Source: Phycisphaerales bacterium (GTDB lineage Bacteria; Planctomycetota; Phycisphaerae; Phycisphaerales; SM1A02). Taken from it: 64,000 nt of DNA. The notes beneath the pieces were generated by a model. That model had not been told where the DNA came from and did not search any database. It saw nothing but the letters and a program-made list of their open reading frames with translations. Where the stretch lies: NCBI GenBank assembly GCA_022447205.1, contig JAKVBQ010000001.1:62001-126000 (forward strand), written 5' to 3'. Below, in pieces: positions 11,337-32,754 of this stretch. Position 1 is the first letter of the stretch. Every line of letters begins with the position of its first letter. The position numbers and the translations under genes were made by a program.

Positions 11337-12413
11337 ATGACCAACGCGAACCATGCCCGGACCGTAGAACTGCTCGGCAACGAGGCGGACAGCCTCCTGG
11401 GCCACGTCGCGAAGGTGGACAGGTCGCTGCTGCACGTGCCCGGTTCCGACTGGGTCGACCGCATCTTCCTCGAGTCGGATCGCAATCCGCAGGTCCTGAA
11501 GTCGATGCAGCAGATCCTCGGCTCCGGTCGGCTCGGAGGTACCGGGTACGTCTCGATGCTTCCCGTCGACCAGGGGATCGAGCATTCCGGCGGAGCGTCC
11601 TTCGCGGCGAACCCCCTGTACTTCGATGGCGAGAACATCATCAAGCTCGCGATCGAGGGTGGATGCAACGCCGTCGCCACGACCTTCGGGGTGCTTGCCT
11701 CGGTCTCGAGGAAGTACGCGCACCGGATCCCCTTCATGGTGAAGCTGAACCACAATGAACTGCTTTCCTACCCGAACCAGTACGACGAGATCCTCTACGG
11801 GACGGTCGAGGAGGCCTGGAACCTCGGTGCCACCGCGGTCGGCGCGACGATCTACTTCGGATCCGAGCAGTCCCATCGCCAGATCATCGAGATCTCCGAG
11901 GCGTTCCAGCATGCCCACGAACTCGGGATGGTGACCGTGCTCTGGTGCTACCTGCGGAATTCCGCCTTCAAGAAGGACGGAAAGGACTTCCACGTCTCGG
12001 CGGATCTCACCGGCCAGGCGAACCACCTTGGTGTCACGATCAAGGCGGACATCATCAAGCAGAAGCAGGCCGAGCTCAACGGCGGCTACCTTGCGATGAA
12101 CGAGGACGGGGTCTCCTTCGGCAAGTACGACTCACGAATGTATTCGGAGCTTGCCACCGACCACCCCATCGATCTCTGTCGCTATCAGGTCCTCAACTGC
12201 TACTGCGGGCGATCGGGCCTCATCAATTCCGGCGGTGGATCGGGCGCGAACGACCTGGCCCAGGCGGTCAGGACCTCCGTGATCAACAAGCGCGCGGGTG
12301 GACTCGGGATGATCTCGGGACGCAAGGCGTTCCAGCGTCCCATGAAGGAAGGCGTTGAATTGCTCAACGCCATCCAGGACGTGTACCTCGACGAGTCCAT
12401 CACCGTCGCCTGA
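11337..12413 (+). CDS. fbaB: Class I fructose-bisphosphate aldolase (DhnA type)
   Basis: 358 aa. It reversibly cleaves fructose 1,6-bisphosphate in glycolysis/gluconeogenesis through a Schiff base. The sequence has the family's [17 protein letters not shown] stretch (about residues 73-89), [19 protein letters not shown], and a C-terminal phosphate-binding region [15 protein letters not shown] with [14 protein letters not shown]. Length is typical of the larger DhnA/FbaB group. A good ribosome site, AGGAG, lies just upstream of the ATG. It appears to be a single-gene unit. Confidence 0.93.
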
Positions 12414-30248: not shown

Positions 30249-30936
30249 CAAACATCCCGGCCATTCGGCCATCTCTGAGGACGAACGCCCGTCTGCAGTG
30301 TGCCGCGGCATCCGCTTCATGGGTCACCATCAGCACGATCATCCTTCGTTTCTCGGCAAGCTCCCGCAGGCACGTCCAGAGGAGGTCGCTTGAGTTGGAG
30401 TCGAGGTTGCCGGTCGGTTCGTCGGCGAACAGGACAGCAGGTGAGAAGAAGAGTGAGCGTGCGATCGCCACACGCTGCTGTTCACCTCCGCTGAGCGCCT
30501 CGGGTCGGTGGTCCATCCGTCCCTCGAGTCCGAGCTCGACGAGCAGTTCACGACCCCTCGCGAGGAGCTCCTCCTCGGGAAGTCGATCCAACACGCCCGG
30601 AAGGACGACGTTCTCGAGCGCGGTGAGCGTGGGGAGGAGGTTGAACTGCTGGAAGACGACACCGATCGCTCGCCTTCGGTACAACGTCAGTTCCTTCTCC
30701 GTGAGGGTGTCGACCCTGGTTCCGGCCACGGAGATCTCACCCTCGTCAGGCGTGTCGAGGCCGGCAAGGAGATGCAGCAACGTGCTCTTGCCGCTGCCGG
30801 ATGCACCCATGATCGCATAGAAGCCCGGTTCGTCGATCAACAGGTCGAGCGCGTCGAGCGCATGCACGCTTCGATCGCCGATCGAGAACGACTTGCTCAG
30901 TCCCCGGGTCCTGATTGTGAGCTCAACGTCTTCCAC
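30184..30936 (-). CDS. ABC transporter ATPase, LolD/MacB type
   Basis: 250 aa. Walker A is [19 protein letters not shown], the Q-loop is [17 protein letters not shown], the signature is [15 protein letters not shown], and Walker B is [22 protein letters not shown] with EPTGNLD is typical of the lipoprotein/macrolide-type exporters that pair with FtsX-domain permeases. The downstream gene encodes such a permease and overlaps it by 65 nt. It follows gcvH by 33 nt, so gcvH, the transporter and uvrB probably share one transcript. Confidence 0.92.
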
Positions 30937-30969
30937 GAGGTAGGTGCACCAGTTCCGAGGCGGCCCGCA

Positions 30970-31353
30970 TCAGCCGGAGCCGTGCAGCTGCTCGTACGTC
31001 TCGCCATCCATCAGCCCTTCGAGGCTGGATGCATCGGACACGTTCAGCTTGACGAGCCAGCCCTCACCGTAGGGATCACTGTTCACGAGGGAGGGATCGG
31101 TTGCGACGTTCTCGTTCACTTCGACGACCGAACCACCGACCATGCTCACGACGTCCGCGGTGGTCTTCACCGATTCGACTTCACCGACCGATGTTCCTGC
31201 ATCGACCGACGTGCCCTGAGGCATCATCTCGACGTAGGTGATGTCGGTGAGTTCATCCGCGGCATGTCGGGTGATGCCGATCGTCACCGTCTCCCCATCC
31301 TTCAGGAACCATTCGTGGGATTCGGAATACTGGCGGTCGTTGGGGGTGCTCAT
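30970..31353 (-). CDS. gcvH: Glycine cleavage system H protein
   Basis: 127 aa from the ATG at 31353 (MSTPNDRQYSESHEWF). The lipoyl-lysine is K63 in GEVESVKTTADV, the standard H-protein site. HEWF, GITRHAADEL and GEGWLVKLNV are other family marks. It carries the aminomethyl group between the P and T proteins in glycine cleavage. No gcvP or gcvT is nearby. It begins next to the structured intergenic region at 31.4-31.8 kb. Confidence 0.93.
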   Translation of the reverse strand: MSTPNDRQYSESHEWFLKDGETVTIGITRHAADELTDITYVEMMPQGTSVDAGTSVGEVESVKTTADVVSMVGGSVVEVNENVATDPSLVNSDPYGEGWLVKLNVSDASSLEGLMDGETYEQLHGSG

Positions 31354-31485
31354 GGATGGCTCCAGCCTGGTTCGGGGCACGAGGACTCAAGGTGGGGCAT
31401 GATAGGCAGAATTCGGCGGGCCAGATCATGGGAAACCCCTGCTCGGTGCTCGGAAAGCGTCTTTGTGAAGATAGGCAAGATTCCC

Positions 31486-31514
31486 TTGCGGGCATCGCGC
31501 TCAAATGTTATCGT
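31486..31514 (+). promoter_or_regulatory. Candidate sigma-70 promoter for intergenic RNA
   Basis: TTGCGG at 31486-31491 and TATCGT at 31509-31514 are separated by exactly 17 nt. Start would be near 31521. Matches to consensus are partial, but spacing is ideal and a terminator follows about 85 nt downstream on the same strand. Confidence 0.35.
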
Positions 31515-31520
31515 TCGTTT

Positions 31521-31606
31521 ATGTGTGCGGCCGCGCCAGCCGCGCCAACGGACTTATCTTTCTCCCCTCCGGAAAGCGCCGGCCGACTGGCGGGCGCTTT
31601 CTTTTT
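31521..31606 (+). ncRNA. Candidate small RNA or terminated leader
   Basis: A short predicted transcript from the promoter at 31486-31514 to the terminator at 31572-31606. No convincing gene lies on this strand upstream. Just before the terminator stem is an unpaired C-rich stretch, TCTCCCCTCC at 31561-31570, which contains CCTCC, the sequence that pairs with a GGAGG ribosome site. It could act in trans on ribosome sites or be the aborted leader of the gene at 31819. A frame from 31521 would give a Cys/Ala/Pro-rich 48-residue peptide; I think it unlikely to be coding. Confidence 0.4.
31572..31606 (+). terminator. Rho-independent terminator
   Basis: Perfect 9-bp stem GAAAGCGCC (31572-31580) with GGCGCTTTC (31593-31601), loop of 12 nt, followed at once by TTTTT. 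The strongest intrinsic terminator in the window, yet it has no plus-strand gene upstream: gcvH is divergent. Confidence 0.75.
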
Positions 31607-31676
31607 GAACCTAACCTCTTTTTTCACATCGTCTTCGCATGGTCAGCAGGAGCAGGAGACCAAGTGAAGTGCTCCC

Positions 31677-31730
31677 GGACCGGCATGTTATGTGACGCTT
31701 TGGTATCGAGATGCCGGTTCAAATCTCGAT
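31677..31730 (+). promoter_or_regulatory. Interleaved inverted repeats (pseudoknot or switch candidate) in a leader
   Basis: Two 8-bp perfect complements cross each other. ACCGGCAT (31679-31686) pairs with ATGCCGGT (31711-31718), extendable to 10 bp with one G.U. ATCGAGAT (31705-31712) pairs with ATCTCGAT (31723-31730). The order A, B, A', B' is that of an H-type pseudoknot or of two mutually exclusive hairpins, since B and A' share two bases. It lies 88 nt before the GTG start at 31819. Confidence 0.45.
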
Positions 31731-31818
31731 GGAGAGCAACGGGGACCGTCCTTGGCGTGCTAAACTTCGCCGCTCCCCGCGCATGGCGGTCCATGTCCAC
31801 CCTGGAGGAATCCGTCTC

Positions 31819-32754
31819 GTGCAGGCGCAGATCCTACTCACCCTCTCCGTAGGCAGCCTCAAGCCGCTCATCGATTCCGGCGAGCTCGCTCTCGAGGATG
31901 TTCCTGCATTCGCAATGCGGGAGTTCGATCTGCGCGGTCTCAACATTCCCGCGTCGTTGTTCGCAGGCCAGTCGATCGCTGTTTTCGACCGACTTCGAGA
32001 CAATGCGGACAAGGCCGGTTGCCCCGTCCTCATTCTCGTGGAGGAACAGCCCCTCCTGTTCGCCTTCGAGACCGACGAGGAGCGTGATGCGACCCTCGAG
32101 CGGATCGGTCGCCTGGCCATCGCTGCGAACCGGCTCGGCTGCAATGCCCTTGCCGTCTCCTGCCTGGCGCCGAAGAACGATGAGGACACCTTCGAGCTGA
32201 CCGTCGACGGGATCAAGGATGCCATCGGGAAGATCGAGCAGTTCGATCTCAATCTCCTGCTTGCACCCACCAAGGGACTGACCCACGAGCCCGATCGGCT
32301 CACCGACCTCATCAAGCGCGTGGGTGGATTCCGCATCGGTTCCTTCCCGAGTTTCGGTCATGCCGAGGCGACGACCGATCCCAACGACACCCTGCGCAAG
32401 CTTGCCCCGTATGCCGGAGGCATCGAGGCGACGATCTCCGGTGGCAAGAAGAGCATCGATCTCGCGGATGCGATCGACTCCATCCTGAGTGTGGGCTACC
32501 TGAACACCCTTTCAATCAACTACCTGCCGAAGAGGAAGTCGATGGACGGCATCCGTGCGAGCCGTCGTTCACTGGCGGAAGCGCTCGGCCAGCTCGACGA
32601 AGAGGATCTGGAAGCACTCCTCGAGGAGGAGTTCCCCGATGTCCCCGGTGCCGTTGACGGTGCAGGTGGGGAGGAAGGCTCCGTGGTCGAGGAGTTCGGG
32701 AACGAAGAAGACGAGGGTGCTAATGGGGCCGATGGCGAGCGAGCAGGGGATTGA
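31819..32754 (+). CDS. Probable sugar-phosphate isomerase-like TIM-barrel protein
   Basis: 311 aa from a GTG at 31819, which has GGAGG at 31804-31808 in front; ATGs at 31711 and 31783 lack a ribosome site. The sequence reads like an AP-endonuclease-2/xylose-isomerase-like TIM barrel: AMREFDLRGLNIPASLF, LAIAANRLGCNALAVSC, NLLLAPTKGLTHEPDRLTDLIKRVG and GSFPSFGHAEAT. The last 40 residues are acidic and low-complexity. The substrate is unknown. It heads an operon with cmk, plsC, cca and a membrane protein, and its leader carries the structures at 31.5-31.73 kb. Confidence 0.6.
   Translation: MQAQILLTLSVGSLKPLIDSGELALEDVPAFAMREFDLRGLNIPASLFAGQSIAVFDRLRDNADKAGCPVLILVEEQPLLFAFETDEERDATLERIGRLAIAANRLGCNALAVSCLAPKNDEDTFELTVDGIKDAIGKIEQFDLNLLLAPTKGLTHEPDRLTDLIKRVGGFRIGSFPSFGHAEATTDPNDTLRKLAPYAGGIEATISGGKKSIDLADAIDSILSVGYLNTLSINYLPKRKSMDGIRASRRSLAEALGQLDEEDLEALLEEEFPDVPGAVDGAGGEEGSVVEEFGNEEDEGANGADGERAGD

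Follow-up and report, generated by a model that had tools for sequence, protein, structure and literature searches.

A predicted small-RNA gene with a near-invariant C-rich box, and its siblings, in the Phycisphaerales

Small RNAs that carry a C-rich anti-Shine-Dalgarno sequence are an already known kind. In the Rhizobiales, the alpha-r14 family/NfeR1 (SmelA075-type) keeps an ultraconserved, unpaired C-rich anti-Shine-Dalgarno motif while its stems diverge (PMC3927594, PMC10746234). In Listeria, LhrC is a set of multicopy sRNAs whose CU-rich UCCC motifs bind mRNA upstream of the start codon (PMC4132741). RsaE, RNAIII and SprD of S. aureus and FsrA of B. subtilis are described, in work cited in PMC4132741, as directing C-rich UCCC seeds against Shine-Dalgarno (SD) sequences.

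The locus reported here lies in a window of 64,000 nucleotides from a Phycisphaerales bacterium, to which all unprefixed positions refer. Judged from its sequence and from comparison with relatives, it is very probably a conserved small-RNA gene, independently transcribed and terminated. Like alpha-r14/NfeR1 it has a conserved unpaired C-rich box and stems that are free to change; however, alpha-r14/NfeR1 repeats CCUCCUCCC in three (or four) hairpins, whereas the window locus has one longer box with the core CUUUCUCCCCUCC, which is not repeated and sits outside the hairpins, flanked by a 5' hairpin and the terminator. The alpha-r14 RNAs also belong to a different phylum, and no Rfam or sequence relation to the present family was found. 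The likeness to LhrC lies in a multicopy family with a CU-rich motif, UCCC being present in the box; LhrC, from a low-GC Firmicute, has three redundant sites per RNA where the window copy has one box, and its copies differ slightly in their C-rich segments, the part that is kept near-invariant here while everything around it diverges. As judged by the Rfam search, RsaE, RNAIII, SprD and FsrA are unrelated in sequence, and they use short UCCC seeds, compared with a 13-nt core here. Cis-acting leaders and attenuators likewise place a terminator 5' of an operon, but the operon here has a promoter-like -10 past the terminator, and the unit is also found without the operon.

The Rfam search that a first-pass annotation of this DNA had suggested gave no match at gathering in Rfam 15 for either the window or the siblings. 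The candidate rnk_pseudo (17.3 bits, E 2.4) fell under its cut-off, and the siblings' Rfam matches are at chance level. The open-access literature yielded no described small RNA of Phycisphaerae and, as far as Rfam 15 and this limited search show, the family is undescribed.

Parts of the window locus

The features of the locus and its surroundings are as follows, with the evidence for each in brackets.

31468..31482 (approximate limits), plus strand: promoter-upstream element, here AAGATAGGCAAGATT, consensus AAGATGGGTAAAAT (alignment A1; shuffle test)
31486..31491, plus strand: predicted -35 hexamer TTGCGG, family consensus TTGC (sequence; alignment A1; shuffle test)
31509..31514, plus strand: predicted -10 hexamer TATCGT after a 17-nt spacer, family consensus TATNAT (sequence; alignment A1; shuffle test)
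31521..31606, plus strand: predicted small RNA of class A, about 86 nt, its 5' end placed by inference 7 nt past the -10
31524..31549, plus strand: 5' hairpin region GTGCGGC...GCCGCGC (folding; the letters vary, the hairpin is often kept)
31556..31571, plus strand: unpaired box AUCUUUCUCCCCUCCG (ATCTTTCTCCCCTCCG), with the C-rich TCTCCCCTCC at 31561-31570 (alignments A2 and A3; f6 copies; folding)
31558-31569, plus strand: invariant core CTTTCTCCCCTC within the box (34 class A/C loci; common to class B)
31572..31606, plus strand: intrinsic terminator, a perfect 9-bp stem of GAAAGCGCC (31572-31580) with GGCGCTTTC (31593-31601) and a loop of 12, then TTTTT at 31602-31606 (sequence; family compensation)
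31761..31766, plus strand: TAAACT, a conserved -10-like sequence of the TIM-barrel operon, 3' of the terminator; TAGACT in the family
31820..32754, plus strand: xylose-isomerase-like TIM-barrel gene with a GTG start at 31820, then cmk and plsC; a neighbour outside the RNA (profile match of the product to AP_endonuc_2, 1.4e-6, under the curated cut-off)
30970..31350, minus strand: gcvH, a divergent neighbour outside the RNA, kept beside class A copies (GCV_H, 1e-39)

The first-pass annotation had described the promoter-like pair, the C-rich stretch and the stem with its T-run, and its sequence facts hold. The two promoter hexamers stand at the positions it gave, the 9-bp stem is perfect and followed by the T-run, and no plus-strand gene precedes the locus, gcvH being on the minus strand. 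The C-rich stretch is indeed mostly unpaired in the predicted fold of the window RNA, where the box has an unpaired probability of 0.86. CCTCCGG at 31566-31572 is complementary to CTGGAGG at 31802-31808, as had been pointed out, and the two are able to pair. A long open frame (30508-31608, plus strand) lies antisense to gcvH and spans the RNA; it looks mechanical in G+C-rich DNA.

The terminator, with its G+C-rich stem and following U-run, is the strongest structural feature of the locus in folding. A simple scanner reported neither this promoter nor this terminator, because the hexamers are too weak for it and the loop of 12 exceeds its hairpin loop limit of 8. The 94-nt stretch folds moderately better than shuffled sequences (z = -2.7). 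Given the scanner's miss and this moderate z, the window sequence alone is not decisive and leaves room for chance.

Conservation and spread of the family

When positions 31480-31640 were searched blastn-style against 60 relatives, many genomes of the same family matched over the box and terminator (query 77-127), with a best E of 4e-11 outside the genus for that part alone. The sequence ATCTTTCTCCCCTCCG is kept near letter for letter in relatives and its 13-nt core is nearly invariant, while the terminator stem differs, from GAAAGCGCC/GGCGCTTTC here to GAAAACGTCGGCC/GGTCGGCGTTTTC in most. Within the box, CTTTCTCCCCTC is invariant in an alignment of 34 class A/C loci; part of these were located via the box itself, so this invariance is partly due to sample selection. 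The copies in family f6 are a fairer test of conservation, as they were found by the covariance model without the exact 15-mer, and they read [AT]GCTTTCTCCCCTCCGCCCC with the core CTTTCTCCCCTCC intact. Against the covariance model, the window locus scores 68 bits in its own genome (E 5e-19), a score that is partly built in since the model was trained with the window sequence among its members.

The stem changes in a manner that preserves pairing, which bears out the covariation check proposed in the first-pass annotation. In class A, double compensating changes occur at 7 of the 13 terminator pairs (18 cells, against 2.7 in shuffles), and in class B at 9 of 12 (98 cells, against 28.9); in both classes, the cells and the score beat every shuffle. 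A terminator with compensating changes of this kind is as expected of an sRNA gene. The annotation had named loss of the C-rich stretch and stem among close relatives as evidence against its proposal; the box is instead near-invariant and the stem changes with compensation.

Class B copies combine the same box with an unrelated terminator stem at other genomic sites; in genome G056, for instance, class B is placed at 2878367-2878429. Class A, class B and one more sibling all occur in the window's own genome. Its second copy (L046, G000:C4:52269-52332), which came from a pattern search of the phylum, has an identical box and a different terminator, GCTCCGTTGAAGC..GCTTCAACGGAG; the third (L170, G000:C31:19406-19467) has a shorter box, ATCTTTCTCCTCCGG (CTTTCTCCTCC). 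Two weaker matches in the same genome (L346, G000:C2:32813-32874, and L351, G000:C1:47228-47283; 22 and 20 bits), both with C-rich boxes before terminators, are possible further siblings. At L171, two sibling RNAs with slightly different boxes stand in tandem about 180 bases apart (G052:C111:12084-12146 and 12268-12330).

A scan of named genomes for the box followed by 18-40 nt and TTTT returned at least 118 stretches, mostly from Phycisphaerae among the matches listed. Exact 15-mer matches in unrelated phyla were treated as chance, most of them having no terminator hairpin. Complete copies of the RNA (L067, L136, L083, L140 and L088) also turn up under the labels Vicinamibacteraceae, Bacteroidia, Limnohabitans or Kuenenia, in records that are probably mislabelled metagenome bins. 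Weaker siblings in other families have varied, C/U-rich boxes, mostly ending in CUCC (CTCATTCTCCTCCTCCG, ATCTTTCTCCTCCG and others), and boxes of the CTCATTCTCCTCCTCCG type directly precede a terminator; the weakest of these siblings have E near 1e-4 and are tentative.

Two covariance models describe the distribution. With R2, the class B model, about 100 of 161 order genomes (roughly 60%) have a match at E<=2e-10; families f1, f4, f5 and f6 are well covered and f2 is mostly negative. With R1, the class A/C model, matches at E<=1e-10 come mainly from part of f1 and from all six sampled f4 genomes. Because the box is common to both, each model weakly recognises the other's members, and raw tallies at E<=0.01 are therefore too high for either class. 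A draw of 120 class genomes gave 13 matches at E<=1e-6, of which 11 are in the order and two come from one other family; these two are weak (about 1e-7, among about 100 other class genomes).

Promoter, neighbours and the downstream operon

Alignment A1 contains a second conserved block 5' of the box, consisting of GGnAAGATGGGTAAAAT, then TTGC, then TATNAT, with the -10 mostly ending 40-65 nt ahead of the box. A match to TTG-N18-20-TANNNT is present in 27 of 30 class A loci, compared with 2.0 in dinucleotide shuffles; the upstream element together with the promoter pattern is present in 18 of the 30 (0.10 in shuffles). By sequence pattern, then, class A has a promoter of its own, and from its conservation we infer that transcription begins near 31521 and yields an RNA of about 86 nt. 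Classes A and C both carry the element AAGATGGGTAAAAT on the 5' side of the -35, and some f6 copies of class B are preceded by a similar one (e.g. L177 and L188). It is perhaps the binding site of a transcription factor.

The class A promoter pattern was found in only 3 of 80 class B loci. When a shared class B promoter was sought, most families gave no clear motif, and only a lineage-limited GTCCGAA emerged. As most class B families are without a clear promoter, some lineages could produce the class B RNA by processing of 3' UTRs.

Class A is fixed at one site. Wherever the neighbours are readable, class A and C copies are flanked on one side by minus-strand gcvH, with an ABC transporter gene, and on the other by the plus-strand TIM-barrel/cmk genes. 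This constant position before the TIM-barrel operon, together with the ability of CCTCCGG to pair with CTGGAGG, is what speaks for the other possibility raised in the first-pass annotation, a leader or attenuator of the TIM-barrel-cmk-plsC operon in which the terminator or the CCUCCGG:CUGGAGG pairing acts in cis. That pairing, however, is a generic anti-SD match, and it involves nucleotides at the base of the terminator stem. Moreover, a -10-like TAGACT lies 3' of the terminator and a few tens of bases 5' of the TIM-barrel start codon in most loci (TA[GA][AGC]CT in 25 of 34, against 2.65 in shuffles), indicating that the operon would have a conserved promoter of its own past the terminator and would not be transcribed only through the element. 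The box-terminator unit is also found at class B sites, where it follows varied genes (a glycosyltransferase, a thioesterase-like gene and gatA, names that were read from the sequences and not from a family search) and where the downstream genes vary in identity and strand, so that the unit is not tied to one downstream gene. Since the operon has its own conserved predicted -10 and class B has no fixed downstream gene, we consider a leader very unlikely.

Possible partners of the box

The class B box exactly complements an SD sequence, an A-rich spacer and AUG (GGAGGGGAGAAAGAUG), and 71 of 76 class B boxes are complementary to ..GAUG at the position of the start codon. Searches for individual targets gave little. 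With at most one mismatch, GGAGGGGAGAAAGA occurs in the window's own genome only in the two RNA genes themselves, and with up to three mismatches, AUG included, no gene of that genome stands out as carrying the complement of the box. A search for GGAGGGGA-N3-10-ATG singled out no gene; its enrichment over the reversed control is what any SD sequence would show. When the box was set against start regions in a 400-kb sample from one relative (G009), using crude start codons, shuffled boxes paired at least as well, and SD-like motifs were only modestly enriched (0.30 vs 0.21). The same search that finds Hfq in control genomes did not find it in 41 order genomes.

These results have to be weighed against other accounts of the box. 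An sRNA that is real but whose box is a protein site, for a pyrimidine-tract binder of S1-domain or cold-shock type that the RNA sequesters or carries, would account for near-invariance over 13 nt across paralogues, for the absence of a near-perfect mRNA complement from the own genome and for the lack of surplus start-region pairing in the 400-kb sample. It would not explain why sibling boxes vary yet mostly keep the CUCC end, which is complementary to the SD sequence, or why 71 of 76 class B copies have an added CAU, the complement of AUG, and we regard it as unlikely. The box also resembles the rRNA 3' end (GGAUCACCUCCUUUCU), the 16S 3' end in five order genomes being GGATCACCTCCTTTCT, and the class A consensus GGAUCUUUCUCCCCUCC has words in common with this tail. 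As a 16S-tail mimic, it could titrate a factor responsible for binding or trimming the rRNA end, or capture SD sequences globally, and it would be near-invariant because it has to bind a single factor of ribosome assembly, initiation or 3'-end processing. The siblings would in that case adjust translation as a whole, in bacteria whose use of Shine-Dalgarno sequences is weak. Yet the words come in a different order, extra pairing with start regions is absent from the 400-kb sample, and the likeness may reflect only a shared anti-SD core, which leaves such mimicry quite improbable.

Because the terminator is the strongest structural feature, the box could be just its pyrimidine-rich approach, the whole serving to end antisense or read-through transcripts. 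Among 44 predicted terminators from a relative and the window, however, pyrimidine runs of at least 9 beside the stem number 3, against 2.6 when shuffled, and one of the three is the window site; the box is also far more conserved than the stem, and a conserved promoter lies upstream. We therefore give this account very little weight. Alternatively, the complement of the box could be the ribosome site and ATG (GGAGGGGAGAAAGATG) of a minus-strand gene for a small protein, as 71 of 76 class B copies have a perfect SD-spacer-ATG. The ATG is present in 1 of 30 class A copies and missing from the f6 copies, the T-run sits on the plus strand, and class B frames from the ATG stop at random lengths, from 2 to 179 codons; this candidate was rejected and can hardly be correct.

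With the minus-strand gene ruled out by its random frames and the lack of a class A ATG, the box is read as an anti-ribosome-site seed, by analogy with the boxes of alpha-r14/NfeR1 and LhrC, which act in this way. Of the small RNA that the first-pass annotation had suggested to act at ribosome sites, the gene itself stands, on its promoter, box, stem compensation and paralogues. The targeting is plausible, with a box that complements SD-spacer-AUG on one side and, on the other, neither a near-perfect target in the own genome nor an excess of start-region pairing in the 400-kb sample. We consider it moderately likely that the RNA pairs with translation-initiation regions, and we favour, with similar reserve, a stand-alone, trans-acting sRNA gene, one of a sibling family in the order, whose box does the pairing. 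A simple anti-SD seed would not require an invariant core as long as 13 nt.

In such a model, a transcription factor that recognises the AAGATGGGTAAAAT element would probably control transcription of the RNA of about 86 nt, and the box of this RNA would pair with the purine-rich initiation regions (SD and A-rich spacer, and for class B also AUG) of several mRNAs. Pairing would block ribosome loading and so silence other genes, with class A and class B placing one seed under different promoters. As no Hfq was found in the 41 genomes, we hypothesize that pairing is Hfq-independent or proceeds via another chaperone. The family, with its near-invariant 13-nt core, its presence in about 60% of the sampled order genomes and at least two differently promoted copies in many, could provide a concrete entry to post-transcriptional control in Phycisphaerae through one box and predictable transcript ends, and it offers a test of seed pairing without Hfq where Shine-Dalgarno use is weak.

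Folding across the classes describes how open the box is. Across 30 class A loci, the fold of the 5' part is somewhat more stable than that of its shuffled versions (mean z -1.4), and the openness of the class A box is 0.78 with the natural 5' part, compared with 0.66 when that part is shuffled. In class B the effect is small (0.71 vs 0.66).
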